Shown here piece after piece: positions 1-19,447 of a DNA stretch of 64,000 bases. Both the position numbers and the translations under genes were made by a program. The notes beneath the pieces were generated by a model. The model had not been told where the DNA came from, did no database searches, and saw only the letters and a list, made by a program, of their open reading frames with translations. Source of the DNA: Lachnospiraceae bacterium (GTDB lineage Bacteria > Bacillota > Clostridia > Lachnospirales > Lachnospiraceae); assembly GCA_022483465.1 (NCBI GenBank), contig JAKVNF010000004.1:1-64000 (forward strand), in the 5' to 3' direction. The number at the start of each line of letters is the position of its first letter. Position 1 is the first letter of the stretch.

Positions 1-1400
1 TTGAACGTCGCAAGGCAGATCTTGAAGTCCTCTGCAAGACTCGGTCTGGAGATATACATGAGATCCATGAGAAGCTTGTCATACGGTGTGGTGTTGTATT
101 TCCCATACACCTGGGCATAGCCTGTGAGGCCGCACTTGCACTGCAGGCGCAGATCAAACTCCGGGAGGAATTCCTTATACTGCTGGGCAATCTCCGGTCT
201 CTCGGGTCTTGGACCCACGATAGACATGTCTCCCCTCAGGATGTTGATAAGCTGCGGCAGTTCATCCATCCGGCAGGCACGGATGAAGTGTCCAACCTTT
301 GTGATTCTGGGATCCCTCTCCCCGGTGGAGAGTCTTGCAACGCCGTCCTTCTCCGCGTCCATCTTCATGGAGCGGAACTTCAGGACCTTAAAGACCTTTC
401 CGTCCTTCGTGAGCCGGTCCTGTCTATAAAATGCCGTTCCTCCATCTGAGCGGATGATCAGGGCCAGTACGATCATCAGGGGGCTCAGGATCACCAGGGC
501 AAGGCCGCTGAGGAGGATATCAAAGAACCGCTTTAAGAAGAGGTATTCCGGTGTCGGGTTGTACCTTCCCACCTGCAGGATCGGCAGATGGAACAGATGA
601 AGCTTGTCTGCGCTCGCCATGATGACATCCCCGATTCTGGGGATCGTATACGTTGCGATGTCATTGGCGACGCAGTACTTCACGATCTGGTTCCGGTCAT
701 GGGAGTGAAGGCCATAGAGGAAGACCACCTCTGCCTGTCCGATGGCTTTCCGGATTCTGGGATCCTCCACCGAGTTCCGGTTTTTATCTGCGCTGTAGTC
801 CACGGTTCTAACTGGAAAGATGTCGCTGATATGGATCCTGCTGATGACCTCGAAGTGTGTCTGAACACTCCCCTCTTTGATGAAGCTGTCCAGGTTCTGC
901 TCCTCGTCATAGATCAGTACGGTCTTCTTGGCAGGATAGTGGCGGAAGTACCACTGATGGCTGCCGTATGCCCAGAGCGTGATGATCAGGATCTGCACGG
1001 CAAGCACCAGGAGCAGATACAGGACATTGGGCAGCCGAAAGATCAGCAGCCAGATCACGATGTAGGCAAAAAAGTTCGTCAGGACCGCGGAGAGGGTCTG
1101 CGAATAGATGATCTCCGAGATGGAACTGAGGTGGATGAGATATCCGTGATACAGATGGGATATGAGATAGTACAGGATCACATACAGCCCGATCATCAGA
1201 TAGTTTCCCATGCGGTAATAGGGAATCCTCATCTGATGGGAGTAGTACAGGTTCCAGGCGAGAATGAACGGTATGGCAACGCCGATGACATCGAGGAGTT
1301 TGACCAACCGGAGCACAAGACGGTGCTCCGTTGCATTTCTTCCATCTATATCCTTCTTCGCTGCGCCAGAATAGTGATAGGTATTCTTCGTCTCCGTCAT
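1..1400 (-). CDS. Undecaprenyl-phosphate sugar phosphotransferase (bacterial sugar transferase), 3' end outside window
   Basis: Manual reverse translation: starts MTETKNTYHYSGAAKKDIDGRNATEHRLV; contains KVFKVLKFRSMKMDAEKDG, MDELPQLINILRG and CGLTGYAQVYGKYNTTPYDKLLMDLMYI; open at window edge. Confidence 0.85.
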   Translation of the reverse strand, partial: MTETKNTYHYSGAAKKDIDGRNATEHRLVLRLVKLLDVIGVAIPFILAWNLYYSHQMRIPYYRMGNYLMIGLYVILYYLISHLYHGYLIHLSSISEIIYSQTLSAVLTNFFAYIVIWLLIFRLPNVLYLLLVLAVQILIITLWAYGSHQWYFRHYPAKKTVLIYDEEQNLDSFIKEGSVQTHFEVISRIHISDIFPVRTVDYSADKNRNSVEDPRIRKAIGQAEVVFLYGLHSHDRNQIVKYCVANDIATYTIPRIGDVIMASADKLHLFHLPILQVGRYNPTPEYLFLKRFFDILLSGLALVILSPLMIVLALIIRSDGGTAFYRQDRLTKDGKVFKVLKFRSMKMDAEKDGVARLSTGERDPRITKVGHFIRACRMDELPQLINILRGDMSIVGPRPERPEIAQQYKEFLPEFDLRLQCKCGLTGYAQVYGKYNTTPYDKLLMDLMYISRPSLAEDFKICLATF

Positions 1401-2315
1401 TTCTATATACTCCCCGTTGCCTGTCTCCCGCTGCCCCACATTTGTTTCTGGCTCACCCTGACCGGTGCAACGTCAGTGTTCTCATCAGGGAAGCCTATTG
1501 CATGTGCAATCAAACCATGCCATTACCTGAGCCAGCGTATCAGCCGCTCTCTAGCTCAGGCCACAAGAAAAGGAGAGGCGCCAGCTGCGTCCCTCCTCAG
1601 CGTATAGAGCGGCCAGTCGGCATACAGGCATATTACTGCGCAAATTTCTGTCCGCTCTCTTCATAATTTCGTTCCTTACCTACTCCCAACAAACCGCCTG
1701 ACGGAGCCATCCGAATGCCCCTATATTTACGGATATTTCTGTCTATTCCGTCCTTTGTGTCTGCCAAGGCAAATTACGTCTTTGCAGTCAGTACAGCGTC
1801 CTCCTGCTGCCTCCCCGTGATGTCTTGCTGCATCGAATTTCTCTGCATCTTTCCCTGGCTCTCAGGCCGCGGCATCAACCGATGTGATGATGTGATGAAC
1901 GATTCCGGAATTCGTGGTGCCTATTTCTCGGAACCATGCCTTGAAATGTGAGACAGGTCCAACGCTATGTCATATATTATATGATCTGCCTTCCTTGCTC
2001 AAGAAGAGAACTATCCAAATGTGCCAAACGCAGTTCCTGATTTTTTGACACTTTCACGGATCATTTCTTTTCTCGTACAGATAGCAGTACAATCCCCTTC
2101 CTAGGTCCTGCGAGATTTTCCCCTTGCTTGTCCTGCTCCTGTTCTCATTAGCCCCTGTATCTCCGGAGCATGCCGTTCCTTTCCATGGCTTCGTTCCATG
2201 AAACGAATGCCGTTTATCTGCTGCCGATCTGATGCCGATAGGCCAATGCCAAAGGCTTGGCTTACTGCTTCCCCTGCAAAGCAAAAATCATAGAGAAAAT
2301 CACATTTTCTTCATA

Positions 2316-3529
2316 GGCGTTAGTAAGAAAACGGGTTGATAAGCAATAAGTGCATCTTGTAGTCATCAAATTGCAAGCAGATTGAGCTCCTTAACATCTC
2401 CATAATGGTGTACCTTCTTGGGATTCCTGGATGCAAAGAGAGCGTCCGCAAGTTCCCCAATCGTGGTCCTCTGCCTGTACGCTGCCCGGAATACGAGGTT
2501 GTAACGGTTCAAATACTTGGTAGCCACGCCGCGATATTCGATATAGCGGTGCTTGATAAAGGAGTGAAGGTTGTTCACAGTGTTCAGATTGAAGAAACTT
2601 GCCGACTCCTTCTTCACATTCATGACCGTGATTCCCAGGATCTTGCCCAGTCTTGGATACACATTCATGCCGTCCGTCAGGAAAAGTGTTCCCTTCTGGA
2701 CATGACCAGTATAGATATCAACAACATCCGCACTGGAAGGCCTTGCCCGGTTCTCGGATTTCACGATCAGATCGCCAGTCTTGCGCTGTACTGCGGTGCA
2801 GATACAGATCTGCTCGTCTGAAAGGCCGCGTTTGGATGCGGGAGTGCCACGCTTGCGGGGCTTTCGACTGGCATCAGGGCCAAATTTCGTACCTTTTTTG
2901 GACTCCGGAACGTAGGTTTCATCCGCTTCCACGACATCTTCCACCGTGGCTGGCTGCTCCACCTGCATGTCCTCGAGAGCAAGCATGATCTTATGCCGCA
3001 TGAAGAACAGACTGCTATGGCTGATCTTGCATCCATGGCTGGCAAGTGACTTGACCGTCTTATCCAGAGAGGTCCCCCTGAGCGTCTCTTCCAGAACCTT
3101 GGTCCAGATCTCAGTACCAAAGTGTGAGCCTGAGAGCAAAGTGTTGCTCGTTGTAACAAATGACGTTCCACATTGCCTGCAGATGTATGCCTGTTTTCCA
3201 TGTTTGTGTCCATTCCTAACAACATGAGCATTGGAATGGCAGATCGGACAATCCAAACGGGGAGCAATCATCTTCTTCGGAGAAGAGGTTGCACTCTCAT
3301 GGGAGAAGCCCTCCATGAGCTTGTTAACAAGAAGAATCAGGTCGTCCCTGGAAAGATCTCTGGCTTCGGTCAGTATGCGCTCAATGCAGCTCATAGTCTT
3401 GCCCTCCTGGCAAGACTATTGTAGTTCAAGTTAGAGAAGGCCGTTGTACAGCAGAATGTACAAAACGGCATATTTTATACTTCTGCTAAAATGCTTTGGA
3501 GCTTATCAACCCGTTTTCTTACTAACGCC
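2316..3529 (-). mobile_element. IS1595-family (ISXO2-like) insertion sequence, complete
   Basis: Perfect 29-bp terminal inverted repeats GGCGTTAGTAAGAAAACGGGTTGATAAGC (2316-2344 / 3501-3529) flanked by 9-bp direct repeat TTCTTCATA (2307-2315 / 3530-3538). Confidence 0.9.
2366..3394 (-). CDS. IS1595-family transposase (zinc ribbon plus DDE)
   Basis: 342 aa; CPICHSNAHVVRNG...YICRQCGTSF zinc ribbon; VEADETYVPESKKG; NLHSFIKHRYIEYRGVATKYLNRYNLVFRAAY. Confidence 0.85.
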   Translation of the reverse strand: MSCIERILTEARDLSRDDLILLVNKLMEGFSHESATSSPKKMIAPRLDCPICHSNAHVVRNGHKHGKQAYICRQCGTSFVTTSNTLLSGSHFGTEIWTKVLEETLRGTSLDKTVKSLASHGCKISHSSLFFMRHKIMLALEDMQVEQPATVEDVVEADETYVPESKKGTKFGPDASRKPRKRGTPASKRGLSDEQICICTAVQRKTGDLIVKSENRARPSSADVVDIYTGHVQKGTLFLTDGMNVYPRLGKILGITVMNVKKESASFFNLNTVNNLHSFIKHRYIEYRGVATKYLNRYNLVFRAAYRQRTTIGELADALFASRNPKKVHHYGDVKELNLLAI

Positions 3530-4092: not shown

Positions 4093-6504
4093 TCACTTTT
4101 CTTTTCTTCTGGTGCACACGCCAAGAAGAATGCGCAGATCCAGGAGCAGGGAGTAGTGCTGCACATAGGAAAGATCCATCTTCAGGGCATTCTGGTTTGC
4201 AAGGGAGCCGAATCTTGCTCTGCTCTCCGGATCCCTTTCCCTGCTCTCCGGAATCACGCCTCGACTCTCCGGAATCCCGTTCCTCCTCTTTGCCATGCTT
4301 CCTCTGCTCTCGCCTTCTGTCTTTTCAGCTGTCCTTTCCACTGTATTCTCAACTGCCTTTTTATCTGTCTGATTCACTGCATTTTTCCCTGCCTTTTGTT
4401 CTCTCTGAACCTCGGCAGACAGTCCGGTCCGGGAATCCTGCTGTGTGACGTTGCGGTCCTTGGTCATTCCCGCCGCTTCGTCATAGAAAATCCCCTTCTT
4501 CTGCGCATAGCCTGTGTAGCCGGGCTTCACCCGGAGGCGATAGAAGTAGTCCGGGTTCACCTGCATCAGGTCTTCCTGCTGTGCTGCCGGCAGGGGCTGC
4601 GGTCCCACAAGGCTGAGCCTCCCGGCAAGGACATCAGCAAGCATCGGAAGGCTCTTTCCAAAGCCGTCCTTCCGGAACCTGTGGCACACGGTCTTTCTGC
4701 CGCCCTGTCCCAGGATCCGGATGGTCTCCACAGCGGGTTCTCCCTCTCCCCCGTCCCGGATCTTTTTCGTGATCCAGACAGGGCAGGTGACCGCCAGGGC
4801 GGCAACACTCCCGATGATGTCGAACAAGCGCTTTACAATGCGCTTCTCCCAGCGGATGCTGTACTCCTTGAGTTCCAGGATCGGGGTATCAAAGAGGTCC
4901 ATCTGCTCTGCGCCCTCCACCAAGAGGTCCGAGACATCCGGGATCAGGTAGACGCGGATGTAGTGGCCGTAGCAGAACTGCAGGAGCTCCTCCTTGACTC
5001 TGCCGTGCAGGCCGCAGATGACAACGCAGCCGTACCAGCGAAGGCACTCCTCCTCGAGTTCCGACCAGGACTTCTGCCCGGCGTGGAGGATCCGCATGAC
5101 CCGGAACCGGTCCTGCCGGGTCTCGAAGCTCTGCACCATGTGATCCGCAAGGTCATCATCCTCTCCGGTGATGAACAGGGTATCCCTGGCAGGGAACACA
5201 TGCCGGTAGACCGCATCGGAGAGATAGGCGGTCAGGAGTGCCAGCAGGACCTGCACCACGGAGAGACACAGCATCGGAACAGCAGGGAGCAGCCAGTTCG
5301 CCATCAGGGACAGCTGGGCATAGGTGATGAGGTTGGTGATGGCAATGCCGATCACAAGGCCGGTGAACACCGCGGAGGGGCGGTGGTACCCGGTCTTCAT
5401 GCCGCCGTTTGCCCTGGTGGCAAAGAGCAGCACCAGGAAATAGATCACCAGGATGAGGAGATGCCCCCGAAAGTAGAGCTTGATGCCATAGCCGAAGTTG
5501 TAGCCGTCCTGGCTGATACGGGGGCCGCTGACAATGGGGTAGTAGGTCTGAAACCACAGGAGGGCATACAGCACCGTCTGCAGGATGAGGCCAAGGACGC
5601 TCAGCTGTACGGTCAGGAAGCGCTTTACGGACTCCATGTGATTGACGACAGCGTCGTCAATCGCCCTGCGGAAGGTCGCGCGGAAGGCCCACTGCACAAG
5701 GTGCCAGGCGCTGCCTGCCACAGACAGCTGCGCCACGTTCCGGTACAGGTTCCAGATGCGCTTGATGGCGGTGCCCTTGTTGCTCGAGAGGCTCTTTCCC
5801 GGTCTTCGGTACACCGCAAGCGGGGTGTCAAGGCCGTAGGCCGTGATGCCGCTCTTTAGGATCTGCCACCAGGCTGCCATGTCCTCGGAGCCGATATCCG
5901 GCATCCTGCAGAGATCCTTTGCGACAATCTCCGTGTCGATGAGAACCGTGCTGGTGAAGATCACCGTGCGGGAGAGTGCCTTCTCATAGGTCAGCGTCCT
6001 GGGGACCCTGGTCCTCTTCCCGGTGGGGTGTGCGTTCTCATCGCCGAAGTAGTACGACGTAAAGACAAAGCCCGCGTGATACTTCTCCATGTAGGAGAGG
6101 GAAAGCTCCAGCTTTCTGGGATCCCACAGGTCATCCGCATCCAGGAAGGCAATATACCTCCCCTTCGCCGCATCGACACCGGTGTTTCTCGCCCTCGCTG
6201 CGCCCTCGTTCTTCTCCTTTCGGATCAGGTGGATCTTTGCCGCCGTCTCCTTGGGGAGGCTCTCCAGGGTCTTTTCGATCACCTCTGCAGAGTGGTCCGG
6301 GCTCCTGTCATCCACGAGCAGGAGCTCCCAGTCGGTGCAGGTCTGCTGCACCACCGTCCGGATGGTATCTGCGATATAGTTCTCCGCCTTATATACTGGC
6401 ACAATGATGGATATCACGTCTGTCGTTCTCCACATGTATTCCGGCGGCACGTCTCTTTGTCTCCTCCGGAACGATTCAAAAAGGCTGCCGGATGGCGATC
6501 CCAC
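4093..6504 (-). CDS. Fusion protein: GT2 glycosyltransferase + membrane domain + degenerate bacterial sugar-transferase domain
   Basis: 803 aa; N-term ISIIVPVYKAENYIADTI...FLDADD; C-term KRLFDIIGS...LSLVGPQPL...VKPGYTGYAQKKG...LDLRILLGV. Confidence 0.8.
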   Translation of the reverse strand: MGSPSGSLFESFRRRQRDVPPEYMWRTTDVISIIVPVYKAENYIADTIRTVVQQTCTDWELLLVDDRSPDHSAEVIEKTLESLPKETAAKIHLIRKEKNEGAARARNTGVDAAKGRYIAFLDADDLWDPRKLELSLSYMEKYHAGFVFTSYYFGDENAHPTGKRTRVPRTLTYEKALSRTVIFTSTVLIDTEIVAKDLCRMPDIGSEDMAAWWQILKSGITAYGLDTPLAVYRRPGKSLSSNKGTAIKRIWNLYRNVAQLSVAGSAWHLVQWAFRATFRRAIDDAVVNHMESVKRFLTVQLSVLGLILQTVLYALLWFQTYYPIVSGPRISQDGYNFGYGIKLYFRGHLLILVIYFLVLLFATRANGGMKTGYHRPSAVFTGLVIGIAITNLITYAQLSLMANWLLPAVPMLCLSVVQVLLALLTAYLSDAVYRHVFPARDTLFITGEDDDLADHMVQSFETRQDRFRVMRILHAGQKSWSELEEECLRWYGCVVICGLHGRVKEELLQFCYGHYIRVYLIPDVSDLLVEGAEQMDLFDTPILELKEYSIRWEKRIVKRLFDIIGSVAALAVTCPVWITKKIRDGGEGEPAVETIRILGQGGRKTVCHRFRKDGFGKSLPMLADVLAGRLSLVGPQPLPAAQQEDLMQVNPDYFYRLRVKPGYTGYAQKKGIFYDEAAGMTKDRNVTQQDSRTGLSAEVQREQKAGKNAVNQTDKKAVENTVERTAEKTEGESRGSMAKRRNGIPESRGVIPESRERDPESRARFGSLANQNALKMDLSYVQHYSLLLDLRILLGVCTRRKEK

Positions 6505-9618: not shown

Positions 9619-11386
9619 AAATTTTGGCCCTTTCACTTTTTTTGTGGGATGAGCCCTTCCTGACCGTCTCCGAGGTCCTCTGCCCCGGTCCTCCACAGGT
9701 GCCTTCTGCTCTCCGTGCATCTGTACTCCCGGGCGGACCGTGGGAGCATCGCCGAGGGGCCCACGGTCTCGGAACAGCTTTATCCATCAGATCCTCTTGT
9801 ACGGATTTCTGGATGCATCCATGATCTTTAGGAAAAAGTACTCATCATCTGGAAGGCCATAGGCTTTCCTGCGAATGACCTTGATGTGTGCGTTGATCCC
9901 CTCTATCTTCCCGGAGCTGATCGGATAGAGCCCGTATCCCACAATGCCGTCAAAGTGGTTCTCAATGAGCCTGGCAAACCAGAGAAAGTGCTCATTTTTC
10001 GTGCCCCTGCACCAGTCGATGATATCTGTAAACTTCTCGATCATCGTCGCCTGATTGGCTGAGGCATATGCTTCCTGCATGGCCTGCTTGATCAGATCAC
10101 AGGTGAACAGCAGCTTGTTCGAGTTGATGATGTCGTCGTATCGCCGCTCGAAATCGTCATGGGTATGCCTGTAATCGGTCGTACCGAAGATCGCAGATCC
10201 CTTGCGGCACACCTTGCCCTCACGGGCTTCCTGATCGTGTTTCTGCAGGGACTCCCTGCTGGCACAGAGTATCTTCCTTGACCCCTTCAGAACAGTAGCT
10301 TCCTCGACCAGGCCTTCCTTCTTCAGGCGGATCTGTTCCTCCTTCCGAACCTCGGCAATGACCTTCTCGTTGAAGTTCTTGACGATGTGGAAATGATCAT
10401 AAACGATCTGGATCCAACCGCATTTTGCCTTGAAAGCCTCCTGGAAGTCGCTGTTCATATCCATGGCAACGGCCTCTACATGATGCATCCAGTCGTCACC
10501 CACCAGCTCCATGAATTCTTCTACAACGGCCTTTGTTTTGCCTGCTCGGATGAACAGCACCGCACCGGTTATCAGGTCTATGATGTGCGTCGCATATTTG
10601 TGTCCGTTATGCAGCTTGAACTCGTCAATGGCAAGATACCTTGCATAGGCGGCAGGCTTTTTGAGCTTGCCATTCTCATCCGCGTAAAGACCCTTCAGAC
10701 GCTTAAGATCGATCTTCTTGATCGTATTGATGTTGACGCCAGTAATGATTGCCGTGTCCGTAAGGGTAAATTCATCCATAGAAAGATAGCGGATGATCAG
10801 CTGCTCAAGCTCCTTTGTAATCATCGAATCATCTGCCTTGAACGCGACATCCGGTGTGATGGTCTTGCCACAGAGATTGCATCTCCACTGGTACTTGTCG
10901 CACTCAATGATGGTTTGGCATGCCTGAAAGGGAATGTGTTTGATCTTCGTGTGGTAGGTCTGATTCTTGTACATCCTGCGCCCGCAGCAAGAGCATACAG
11001 GATGGTCCAGCTGGTCCAATTTACCGCGCAGAATATAAGCCCTTTTGAAGGTATTCTCACTCAGTTTGCTCTTCCGCATGGAGTGGAAGGGCCTGACGTC
11101 TCGAATAGGAACCTCTTCAACGCTCTCCTGCTGGAACCCCGTCAGGTGGCTTGGGAACATCAGATAGTCATTTTGAGTCCGGGCAGCAAAAGACATTTGC
11201 CCATTCGCCTCGGTGTATGTATAATTCTGATTCATAAGAGGTTTCCTTTTTATCCCGTATTGCATATCTTGGGCGACGTGCAATCGAGATGATATCAGGA
11301 AATCTCTTTTTGTAAATAGATGATATTCTCTATAGGCTGCCTTCTTTTAGTGCATCACACAAGAAAAATGAAAGACCCGAAATTTT
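9619..11386 (-). mobile_element. ISL3-family insertion sequence (ends approximate)
   Basis: Imperfect IRs AAATTTTGGCCCTTTCACTTTTTTTGTGGGATG (9619-9651) and reverse complement of 11353-11386; encloses an ISL3-like transposase; no clear TSD seen. Confidence 0.65.
9787..11283 (-). CDS. ISL3-family transposase
   Basis: 498 aa; CSCCGRRMYKNQTYHTKIKHIPF, AVAMDMNSDFQEAFKAKCGWIQIVYDHFHIVKNFNEKV, GKIEGINAHIKVIRRKAYGLPDDEYFFLKI. Confidence 0.9.
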   Translation of the reverse strand: MHVAQDMQYGIKRKPLMNQNYTYTEANGQMSFAARTQNDYLMFPSHLTGFQQESVEEVPIRDVRPFHSMRKSKLSENTFKRAYILRGKLDQLDHPVCSCCGRRMYKNQTYHTKIKHIPFQACQTIIECDKYQWRCNLCGKTITPDVAFKADDSMITKELEQLIIRYLSMDEFTLTDTAIITGVNINTIKKIDLKRLKGLYADENGKLKKPAAYARYLAIDEFKLHNGHKYATHIIDLITGAVLFIRAGKTKAVVEEFMELVGDDWMHHVEAVAMDMNSDFQEAFKAKCGWIQIVYDHFHIVKNFNEKVIAEVRKEEQIRLKKEGLVEEATVLKGSRKILCASRESLQKHDQEAREGKVCRKGSAIFGTTDYRHTHDDFERRYDDIINSNKLLFTCDLIKQAMQEAYASANQATMIEKFTDIIDWCRGTKNEHFLWFARLIENHFDGIVGYGLYPISSGKIEGINAHIKVIRRKAYGLPDDEYFFLKIMDASRNPYKRI

Positions 11387-15395: not shown

Positions 15396-16721
15396 TTACT
15401 GGCCTTCTTCTTCCGCAGCTTCCGCCCTCTCCGCGGAAGCCTCTGCAGAAGCGGTCTCCCCGGTGCCTGCGCTCTCCTTCACCGCCTCGCTCCCGTCCGC
15501 ACTCAGGACCTCGCCGGTATCCGGATCCACCTCGCGGTAATAGATCTCGATGATCATGTCGTAGAGGGACCGCTCGTCGTAGACGAACTCCTCATGCTCC
15601 GTCTTTGCCTTCTCGGCGGGGGTTGTGGTTCCTGTCATCGAGTAGATGTCGGTATTCAGCGTGTAGCCCCCGATGTGATCCGCCAGATAAACGATCTCTG
15701 TCATGTCGATATCCGTCACGACGTAATCCTTAATGCTGTTGTAGAGGGTCACGATGCTGGTCGGATCCTTCTCCACACTGGACTTGAGCTTTGCGACAAA
15801 GTTCTGGAGGAAGCGCTTCTGCTTCTCCAGGCGGTAGGTCGCCGCATCGTAGTCGTTCCCCCGGGTGCGCACAAACGAGATGGCATCGTCTCCTGTCACC
15901 GTCTCATCCTCCCCGTAGATGATCTCCCCGTTCTCATAGGTCATTCTCGGTACCGTCACGCCTCCCACGGCATCGGCGAGCGCCCCGACGGCATCCATGC
16001 CGATGGAGCAGTAGCCGCTGATCGGCAGGCCGTAGAACAGGTTGGAGACGGCCTTTTCCATACGCTCGCAGCTCTGCTGGAGCCCATCTCCGTAGCCGTG
16101 CTGCAGGCAGATCTGGCCGGGGCCGGTTCCCACGTAGTTGCCGTCCTCGTCGTAGACATCGATGTCCGTCATGGTGTTCCGGTTGATGGCAATGATGTCG
16201 ATCTGTTTGGTGTCTGGGTTGACAACCAGCAGGAAGTTTCCATCGGACTGCCCGCCATCGATGCCGTTTTTGCCGGCAGCTGCAGGGCCGCTCTTGTCGA
16301 TCCCCATAAACAGGAAGGTCAGGATGTCCCGGTTGTACTCCATGACCTTTCCGTTGTAGTTGACCCAGCCCGACTTCCAGTTCTCCTGGTCCGCTGTGCT
16401 TCCCTGGGCCGCGGTCTCGGTGAGATCCGGGGCAGTCTCCTTCTGCGCCCCATAGAGTCTGGACCTTCCGACATCATTGGCGATACGCCAGCCGGCGAAC
16501 AGGACCAGCGCCGCGGCTGCAAGGATCAGTATCACCCTGCGCGCGGTGTGCTTTTTCCTGCGCGCTCCTCCTCCCCGTTTCCCGCGTTTTTTTCTGTGCG
16601 GCTGGTGCTCCGGGGGCGTCTCCGGCACGATGTCCGCATCCTCTCCCGGTTCGACCGGATCCTCCTCCCCGATCTCCATGAACTGTATTTCGTCATCCAT
16701 CGCGTTCTTCCCGTCTTCCAT
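15396..16721 (-). CDS. LytR-CpsA-Psr (LCP) family protein
   Basis: TFLFMGIDKSG...DGGQSDGNFLLVVNPDTKQIDIIAINRNTMTDI...YCSIGMDAVGALADAVGGV...FVRTRGNDYDAATYRLEKQKRFLQNF. Confidence 0.85.
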   Translation of the reverse strand: MEDGKNAMDDEIQFMEIGEEDPVEPGEDADIVPETPPEHQPHRKKRGKRGGGARRKKHTARRVILILAAAALVLFAGWRIANDVGRSRLYGAQKETAPDLTETAAQGSTADQENWKSGWVNYNGKVMEYNRDILTFLFMGIDKSGPAAAGKNGIDGGQSDGNFLLVVNPDTKQIDIIAINRNTMTDIDVYDEDGNYVGTGPGQICLQHGYGDGLQQSCERMEKAVSNLFYGLPISGYCSIGMDAVGALADAVGGVTVPRMTYENGEIIYGEDETVTGDDAISFVRTRGNDYDAATYRLEKQKRFLQNFVAKLKSSVEKDPTSIVTLYNSIKDYVVTDIDMTEIVYLADHIGGYTLNTDIYSMTGTTTPAEKAKTEHEEFVYDERSLYDMIIEIYYREVDPDTGEVLSADGSEAVKESAGTGETASAEASAERAEAAEEEGQ

Positions 16722-16925: not shown

Positions 16926-17537
16926 TCAGTCAAGCACGATGGTGACAACACCCATGACTTCCATGGGAACCACTGCCTGGCCGTTCACGATGGTGACCGG
17001 AACTGCGGTAACCGTTCCATCGATCGCATAGATGTATGCGGTTGCGGTCTTTCCGTTGTACTTTGCACCGACACCGACCTTTGCGGTAAAGGTACCGAAG
17101 CCGTTCTTGATGGAGGTCTTTCCATCATACATCCGGAATCTGACACCGGATGCAAGGACCTGCTTGCCGGGAGCGATGGTGTTCACATACTCCTGAAGGG
17201 CATTGTAGGTCTTGGTATCTGCGGGATACACGGTGACGGTTCCCTTGTGGGTTCCTGCAGCTGCTGTACTGCTGCTTGCGCCCGTGCTCTTGTTCGGAAT
17301 GGAAACTGCGCTGTAATCTGCAGCGACGCGGACGGTCTCACCGGCAGTTGTCGTGGTAACAGCTGCTCTGGTGGTTGTGCTGCTGCTTCCCCTTTCAAGG
17401 ACGTGCTGCTGCTCCTGCTGCGTGATTGCACTTGCATTGGTGTTCGTGGTCGTTGAGCTCTCTGCAGCGCAGACATTCATGCCAAACGCCAGCGAAACTG
17501 CCAGCACAACGGATGACATAGCCTTGAGATTCTTCAT
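16926..17537 (-). CDS. Secreted hypothetical protein
   Basis: MKNLKAMSSVVLAVSLAFGMNVCAAESS signal peptide; T/S-rich linker; compact C-terminal part. Confidence 0.6.
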   Translation of the reverse strand: MKNLKAMSSVVLAVSLAFGMNVCAAESSTTTNTNASAITQQEQQHVLERGSSSTTTRAAVTTTTAGETVRVAADYSAVSIPNKSTGASSSTAAAGTHKGTVTVYPADTKTYNALQEYVNTIAPGKQVLASGVRFRMYDGKTSIKNGFGTFTAKVGVGAKYNGKTATAYIYAIDGTVTAVPVTIVNGQAVVPMEVMGVVTIVLD

Positions 17538-17920
17538 TTGTTTTGCAACTCCTTTTCTCTCACAAATGTGGTATACCGGGCCCCTTGGGCGGGATATTGT
17601 TTGGATCGAAGCAGGTCGGAAGCCGGCCTATCTTCTTTCTCTGACAAGGATAGCACAGATTATTCGAATTTTGTAGTCCTTTGGCAAAAGCAGATGGATG
17701 GAATATTCCCCAAAGAGTCTCTTATTTTTGTCACATCTGACAAAATTCTTTATTTCAACAGATTATTTTTGACATTCTCCGGGGAAAAGTCCTCTGTCTT
17801 CCTGCCTCTGAGATCAGGAGCTGTTTCTCCTTCTCCTCCGCCTTTTGGCCGCTTCGTCGCTCCTTCCCGGCCTCTGCGTGCGCTTTCTTGGACTTCCGAT
17901 CCGCGGCGAAGAGGACAGCG

Positions 17921-18724
17921 CTACTGTCCGTCTGCGCCTGCCTTTGCCGTCCCGGTTGCCGTCAGCGTCGCCTGCAGCAGGAAGTCCTGCCCGCTCTCCC
18001 CATCCTCCTTTGCCTGTATCGTGAGGATCTGCCAGTTGTTCAGGACGTCTGTCTGCATCGAGGCGTCGATATTTGCTGTCATGGAGCGCATGGTAAAGAT
18101 GCCGTCCACGTAGCTCTGGAACGTGTCATAGTCATAGCAGTTGTAGGTGACCAAAAGGTCCTGGTCCTGCTCCTCGTAGGAGGCAAAGACGCGGAAGGTC
18201 ATGACCTGTCCGTCCTCTGTGTAGACATACAGGTCCGGATGATCCGAGAAGAACTGGCTGTCCCCGTAATCCATGATGCCGGAGAGGGCCGCTCCCTCCT
18301 TGGTGCTCCCGTGGAAGATCGTCTGGGGATCGGTAAAGGAGGCGTTGTTTCCGGGATCCAGCCATGCCCCGGTATCCGATTCTGCGGACGAGATCGCACA
18401 GTCGATGTCCGTGTCCGGGACATAGAGCCAGGCGACTGCATCGGGAGTCTGGCTCTTTACCGCTGCCCAGTCGATGGTCTTTCCGGTATCAATTGTGCCG
18501 TCCGTGTAGTAGTTGCCCCCGTCTGCGACGACACTCTCCCCGCTCTCAAGGTGGGAGGGGAGCGCCGTGGCCTCCGTACTGGCGCTCTCAGCCTCTGTAG
18601 CATCGGTTGTCACGCTTGCTGCTCCGGAGCTGCAGGCTGTGAGGAGCGGAATCAGGAACAGGGCCGCCGCGGTGCGGCGGACTCTGGAATTGTGCCTTCT
18701 TCTGCTGCCTGCTCCCATCGCCAT
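17921..18724 (-). CDS. Sortase-B-like lipoprotein lacking recognisable catalytic residues
   Basis: Lipobox LIPLLTACSS; AWLYVPDTDIDCAI, QTIFHGSTKEGAALSGIMDYGDSQFFSDHPDLYVYTEDGQ, ILTIQAKEDGESGQDFLLQATL; start chosen near MAMGAGSRRRHNS inside a longer track ORF. Confidence 0.65.
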   Translation of the reverse strand: MAMGAGSRRRHNSRVRRTAAALFLIPLLTACSSGAASVTTDATEAESASTEATALPSHLESGESVVADGGNYYTDGTIDTGKTIDWAAVKSQTPDAVAWLYVPDTDIDCAISSAESDTGAWLDPGNNASFTDPQTIFHGSTKEGAALSGIMDYGDSQFFSDHPDLYVYTEDGQVMTFRVFASYEEQDQDLLVTYNCYDYDTFQSYVDGIFTMRSMTANIDASMQTDVLNNWQILTIQAKEDGESGQDFLLQATLTATGTAKAGADGQ

Positions 18725-18825: not shown

Positions 18826-19230
18826 TTACGGCATCTCTGCCCTGGCTTCTTCCTGTTTTCCCGCAGTGCTGTTCCCGTATGTCCGGGCCTTGTTTCCCTC
18901 TATTGCCCTGCGTGTCTCGATCACGGCATCCAGTTCCCGCTGATTGCCCAGCAGCAGACTGTAAGGCCGTGTCGGATCCCCCGCACCATTTGGCATCATG
19001 CGCAGATCCGTCCCGGATTCGATAGCATCCCTTGCCTGCTTCTGGCAGTTCACCCGGACGGCGCCGTCTCTGCACTTCCAGTTGAACGATGTCCGATCGG
19101 GCAGGTATATACAGTTCTGCGCGCTGTAAAGTACGCTCCAACTGACAACGTTCAGATCCCTCATGACAAGATATTTCAGCAGTGACACACCGCTGCCTAT
19201 GGTTATGCAGACTTTCATTGCATTTTCCAT
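18826..19230 (-). CDS. Hypothetical protein (weak)
   Basis: Open frame MENAMKVCITIGSGVSLLKYLVMRDLNVVSW...; no recognised domain. Confidence 0.3.
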   Translation of the reverse strand: MENAMKVCITIGSGVSLLKYLVMRDLNVVSWSVLYSAQNCIYLPDRTSFNWKCRDGAVRVNCQKQARDAIESGTDLRMMPNGAGDPTRPYSLLLGNQRELDAVIETRRAIEGNKARTYGNSTAGKQEEARAEMP

Positions 19231-19447
19231 TCCCTTCCCCCTCTGTGATCTCTCGCGTCCCATGCGGCGGGAACGCCCGCATGTATCTTATACACCTGCA
19301 ACCCGGTGGATGGCCAGCAGATTTGTGACACTCCTGCAGGTCTCTTCCTGCAGAAAGGCCGCTCCTCTTCTTTTCTCCTCCTCCTTCTTCTTTCCTTCTT
19401 CCTCTTTTCTTCTCCTTTTCTCCTTTTCTTCTCTCCGTCACCGCAAA

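Follow-up and report, generated by a model that had tools for sequence, protein, structure and literature searches.

A lipoprotein of predicted sortase fold without the catalytic triad adjoins a secreted protein without a sorting signal at capsule-cluster remnants in a Lachnospiraceae bacterium

We describe a lipoprotein of sortase fold that is predicted to be non-catalytic and has links to a known type of capsule locus, in a Lachnospiraceae bacterium (GCA_022483465.1, contig JAKVNF010000004.1, positions 1-64,000 of the forward strand; the whole stretch of 64,000 nucleotides is called here the window, and its genome G000). Its relatives suggest a more general event: it is possible, at somewhat less than an even chance in our estimate, that in Lachnospiraceae capsule loci the catalysis of the class B sortase (SrtB) and the sorting signal of its substrate have repeatedly been lost together while both proteins were kept, the pair having become, on several independent occasions, a membrane-anchored surface complex that is not covalent and is used in capsule assembly. 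The features of the window on which the argument rests are the following:

17921..18724, minus strand: pseudo-sortase lipoprotein, 267 aa; signal peptide with lipobox (Cys31), linker and predicted class B sortase-fold domain (about residues 82-255)
17659..17687, minus strand: promoter-like TTGCCA-17-AATAAT upstream of the partner gene; a consensus match only, as the region has 2 such matches where chance would give 1.3
16926..17537, minus strand: small secreted partner, 203 aa; signal peptide, Ser/Thr-rich N-terminal stretch and C-terminal beta-type domain
15396..16721, minus strand: LCP (LytR-CpsA-Psr) family glycopolymer transferase (PF03816, E=8.7e-16; TIGR00350), adjoining the partner gene
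2366-3394 and 9787-11283, minus strand: two transposases, the first IS1595-type and the second ISL3-type, that part the priming transferase from the LCP, partner and pseudo-sortase genes
3..1472, minus strand: exopolysaccharide priming glycosyltransferase (Bac_transf; PF02397, E=1.6e-58, and synteny), truncated by the contig start

The reading frame of the pseudo-sortase is intact and runs from 18724 to 17921. Its composition is that of coding DNA, with a GC content of 0.76 at third positions against 0.48 overall in the adjoining intergenic stretch. Just upstream on the same strand is a frame of 145 aa (18826-19263) that has no Pfam match and may or may not be a gene. Residues 1-31 of the protein (RRTAAALFLIPLLTAC) are a lipoprotein signal peptide with the lipobox LLTAC, in which Cys31 is the presumed lipidation site; with this peptide and the lipobox Cys the protein is assigned to the bacterial lipoproteins, its lipidation being predicted. 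A low-complexity linker comes next, and the class B sortase-like domain begins at about residue 82. Because Pfam, PF04203 included, had no match to the protein, we rested family membership on NCBIfam, alignment and fold. The NCBIfam model TIGR03064 (sortase_srtB) matches it with E=2.1e-10 and 40.3 bits, which is below the equivalog cut-off of 153.75; this cut-off is also missed by L088:9746-10666, a capsule-type relative that is intact and scores 127.9 bits. The top phmmer matches in the PDB were sortase B chains, at E of about 0.001. An AlphaFold2 model of the trimmed domain, computed from only four sequences, reached a pTM of 0.67 and a mean pLDDT of 63, and when it was compared with the PDB by Foldseek the first 19 matches were class B sortases without exception, the best at E=3.9e-10 with a probability of 1.00, and each of the 50 matches listed was a sortase. 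When the full mature chain was modelled the quality was lower (pTM 0.53), yet SrtB was again the first match. We therefore assign the protein a class B sortase fold, as modelled.

The active site is a different matter. Alignment to intact relatives replaces the catalytic His by Ser (YGHN to FHGS), the Cys by Lys (LSTC to IQAK) and the Arg by Asp (RYLVQ to DFLLQ), and since the triad is absent we do not count the window protein among the class B sortase enzymes. A triad in shifted positions was sought in the seven homologues from the genus, the window protein included, and the lipobox Cys proved to be the only invariant residue among Cys, His, Ser, Lys and Arg; the invariant polar residues are Glu63, Asp155 and Tyr166. 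The genome of the window has several other sortases, class B types with intact His and Cys among them. Some class B sortase relatives (L007, L008 (own genome), L067, L068 and L075) keep His and Cys and have Asn at the position of the catalytic Arg, in the motif CYGTGHTDNFV and similar ones. The original prediction had called the protein a sortase-B-like lipoprotein, with an altered His context (IFHGS), QAK in place of the Cys and no apparent Arg, and each of these points is confirmed by the analysis. Its two ways of being wrong, a predicted fold other than sortase or catalytic residues conserved elsewhere in the chain, did not occur. Three findings support its broader suggestion of a non-catalytic, membrane-anchored sortase fold, namely the predicted fold, the missing triad and the persistence of the dead, lipobox-bearing form in seven divergent species.

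Those species came from a search for homologues that covered all 62 genomes of the genus, and six of them besides the source of the window carry lipobox-bearing homologues without His and Cys (L040-L043, L056, L066). The seven sequences have diverged to 26-40% identity, the closest being at about 40%, and the lipobox is present in all of them; most also have a two-residue insertion with Trp before strand 7, and GDSxFF. His and Cys are both kept in about 115 other SrtB relatives of the family. The occurrence of the dead form in seven species led us to reject the reading of the window gene as an isolated pseudogene. A scan of genome contigs with the single pseudo-sortase protein as query returned no relative; the seven-member alignment was too divergent for scanning, and a four-member alignment used in its place brought up three named relatives, uncultured Lachnospiraceae RUG304, Firmicutes bacterium CAG:791 and Clostridiales AS07pgkLD_94. 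The compared genomes are mostly drafts or metagenome-assembled, and the locus survey took the best-scoring matches first and is not exhaustive.

We dropped the idea that dead copies are confined to one genus when 40 more family matches gave three further dead sortases in other genera. One of these bears a lipobox (G292). The other two, L201 6109-6990 (G391) and L202 6310-7083 (G335), are of the membrane-helix type, so a lipid anchor is not essential to the pattern; in them His has become Gln or Pro, Cys has become His in both (LSTH) and Arg is retained. That the same Cys-to-His change stands at two separate places of the tree is curious. A first tree grouped six of the seven dead members of the genus with a support of 99/98, and all seven at 93/91. 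In a second tree, from which the long G228 row was left out, the dead sortase of G190 paired with that of G292 (100/97) and the other five members of the genus formed a starred set of their own. By its starred branches the tree requires no fewer than three switches between intact and dead sortase, and catalysis, as predicted from the aligned residues, would thus have been lost at least three times independently.

The flanks of the relatives share one module, whose gene order and completeness vary: CpsB (PF19567), CpsC (Wzz), CpsD (BY-kinase, TIGR01007), LCP (PF03816), a sortase, a small secreted protein and a priming transferase (TIGR03025). Capsule genes adjoin the sortase relatives in G170, G179, G190 and G292, and in the first three the dead sortase sits within such a module locus; in G224 it adjoins CpsB and, as read from sequence, a putative polysaccharide ABC transporter. 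The window has, in minus-strand order, the pseudo-sortase, the 203-aa secreted protein and the LCP. In G170 and G179 the partner is followed by a homologue of the window's priming transferase; in the window this gene lies 16 kb from the pseudo-sortase, with two IS transposases and unrelated genes between. One protein of that interval (4093-6504, minus strand, 803 aa) has an N-terminal family 2 glycosyltransferase domain and, near residue 640, part of a bacterial sugar transferase domain, covering profile positions 91-140 of 179. The CpsB, CpsC and CpsD genes of this genome were found on other contigs, and together with the intervening transposases this makes the capsule cluster of the strain seem rearranged. 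The pseudo-sortase gene probably belongs to a Lachnospiraceae capsule/exopolysaccharide cluster of which the window holds remnants. The capsule context and the signal-less partner were absent from the original prediction, which also gave no strand.

Each of the 23 intact capsule-type loci has, within the region retrieved, a gene for a small secreted protein that bears a PKTG-like motif at its C-terminus (SPKTG, APKTG, APATG, APQTG and the like). In 19 cases the motif is followed by a hydrophobic stretch and a basic tail, and in four the protein ends just behind it. This tagged protein adjoins the sortase or the LCP at most of the loci; in G010 its gene is on the opposite strand. Partners that end in [SA]PKTG plus one or two residues, without hydrophobic stretch or basic tail, are L127 5975-6565, L128 5257-6072 and 6126-6920, L130 4732-5385 and L141 5617-6420. 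At the dead loci, a sorting motif was found in none of the seven neighbouring secreted proteins (the window, G154, G170, G179, G292, G335, G391). The difference, 23/23 against 0/7, gives a Fisher p=4.9e-7 with kinship ignored; three independent pairs of intact and dead sortases on the tree agree that the tag is lost with the dead sortase, a number (n=3) that cannot reach significance in a kinship-aware sign test. The cleanest case is G335, which has an intact pair and a dead pair in one genome: the partner of its intact sortase (L114) ends in APQTG, a membrane stretch and KKSRR, and at its second locus a sortase with YGPN and LSTH stands with a paralogous partner (47% identity) whose chain ends ahead of the signal. 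A dead sortase beside an untagged neighbour in the relatives suggests that the pair now works by binding and not by chemistry.

The partner of the window holds the same locus position as the PKTG-tagged proteins of intact loci, and its C-terminus (...MGVVTIVLD) was searched for a PKTG-like motif and has none. The search of neighbours for sorting signals that had been proposed at the outset found none in the partner of the window, and found tagged counterparts at the loci of intact relatives. Homologues of the partner adjoin the pseudo-sortase in G154 and G170 and lie near it in G179; in G224 a motif-less homologue is on a different capsule contig, beside CpsC/CpsD, in G228 a contig end cuts the partner off, and at the dead-sortase locus of G190 no partner was seen. 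Altogether the partner was found in five of the seven pseudo-sortase genomes and in one other genome among the 62 (Fisher p=1.9e-5, kinship ignored). A homologue without a sorting signal, L157 1501-2274, occurs in G225, where no pseudo-sortase was detected, and adjoins a gene read from its sequence as a putative acylneuraminate cytidylyltransferase.

Whether the partner is homologous to tagged proteins was approached with profiles. An HMM of four untagged partners matched, among 4245 ORFs, the tagged neighbour of an intact sortase at L143 (E=2.4e-5, compositionally biased). Against a broad set of tagged proteins, HMM-HMM comparison gave a weak match (probability 1.7%); when the C-terminal domains were compared with those of a closer tagged subset, the probability was 38% and the score 26.4, and none of 200 column shuffles scored above 15.9. 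As the closer subset was picked after the first weak comparison, we call the case for homology between the window partner and the tagged proteins moderate.

How these elements may work together can be put as follows. The pseudo-sortase would be lipid-anchored on the outer face of the membrane, as is expected of lipoproteins, and its sortase fold would still bind the former substrate, the partner at 16926-17537, or the LCP that would act on this partner. Holding the partner non-covalently at the site of capsule assembly would replace covalent anchoring, and the presentation of the polysaccharide would then no longer depend on transpeptidation to peptidoglycan. We give about an even chance to this role, in which the pseudo-sortase would keep its former substrate, or the capsule machinery, at the membrane without a covalent bond. 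The parts of it that can be read from the genes are a predicted sortase fold without a triad, a lipobox, conservation in divergent species, capsule loci in the relatives and an untagged neighbour. The original prediction had left the role at "binding, chaperone or decoy"; the neighbours favour binding or escort in capsule assembly.

A rather unlikely alternative is that the protein has its target in the capsule machinery (LCP, CpsC/CpsD or the polysaccharide) and no relation to its neighbour, whose signal was lost because no sortase remained to use it. An unused tag would indeed be lost even without binding, and the dead members of G190 and G224, one with no partner seen and the other with its partner on another contig, are still in capsule loci; the tendency of partner and pseudo-sortase to occur in the same genomes, and the retention of both proteins in three separate lineages, speak for a connection between the two. 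We regard as improbable that the pair is a decaying relic, an inactivated sortase and an abandoned substrate that survive by chance in a rearranged capsule cluster. The transposases that split the locus from the priming transferase and the long branches of the tree would fit decay, which does not lead one to expect open frames of coding-type composition, invariant residues, a conserved partner, or a dead form found in seven species with its lipobox in every one.

The other two readings give the protein a different activity. As a decoy or inhibitor it would compete for the substrates of the cell's other sortases, of which this genome has several, with His and Cys in class B types; its neighbours, however, are capsule genes and an untagged partner, no PKTG-tagged proteins, and the residues of the substrate groove are not retained, so that we consider this role quite improbable. 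It is hardly to be expected that the pseudo-sortase is still an enzyme and does its chemistry with other residues: the fold is retained and Glu63 and Asp155 are invariant, but the seven members of the genus offer no invariant Cys, His, Ser, Lys or Arg outside the lipobox, and the residues at the catalytic positions vary from member to member.

The preferred reading, a binding role in capsule assembly, is supported by analogy with three described systems. The closest known is SrtB4 (RGna_12035) of Mediterraneibacter gnavus ATCC 29149, a human gut member of the Lachnospiraceae in which candidate tagged proteins are encoded near the sortases; its gene is part of a capsule cluster that also has LCP and BY-kinase/phosphatase genes, and capsule presentation depends on it (PMC13121745). 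The likeness, a class B sortase gene within a Lachnospiraceae capsule cluster with an LCP, is drawn from the description of the locus, and SrtB4 is treated as a working sortase whose mutant loses capsule presentation (PMC13121745), whereas the window protein has no triad, a lipobox and an untagged partner. SipA of the Streptococcus pyogenes pilus operons resembles a signal peptidase without catalytic residues, is essential in a sortase-built pilus system and was proposed to bind (PMC4049620). It too would be a dead enzyme fold with a binding role at the cell surface, in a sortase-linked assembly operon; its fold is that of a signal peptidase, however, and the pilus sortase beside it is active. 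In Actinomyces oris, LcpA glycosylates a sortase-anchored protein (PMC6381275), and LcpA, GspA and SrtA thus join an LCP enzyme, a surface protein and a sortase in one pathway that links glycan to protein. Unlike the window pair, SrtA works there as an active housekeeping enzyme and the surface protein carries a sorting signal. To the TIGR03064 family as a whole the window protein is tied by its sequence match and predicted fold; it differs in lying far under the equivalog cut-off, in lacking His, Cys and Arg, and in having a lipobox instead of a membrane helix.

Pseudoenzymes are well known in other families. Our literature search, limited to open-access papers, found no described pseudo-sortase. 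Natural variants that lack the chemistry and keep both proteins would allow a direct test of whether a binding role is sufficient for capsule presentation. If the proposal is true, the sortase fold would have a function in binding that can be separated from catalysis, perhaps also in the intact capsule sortases.
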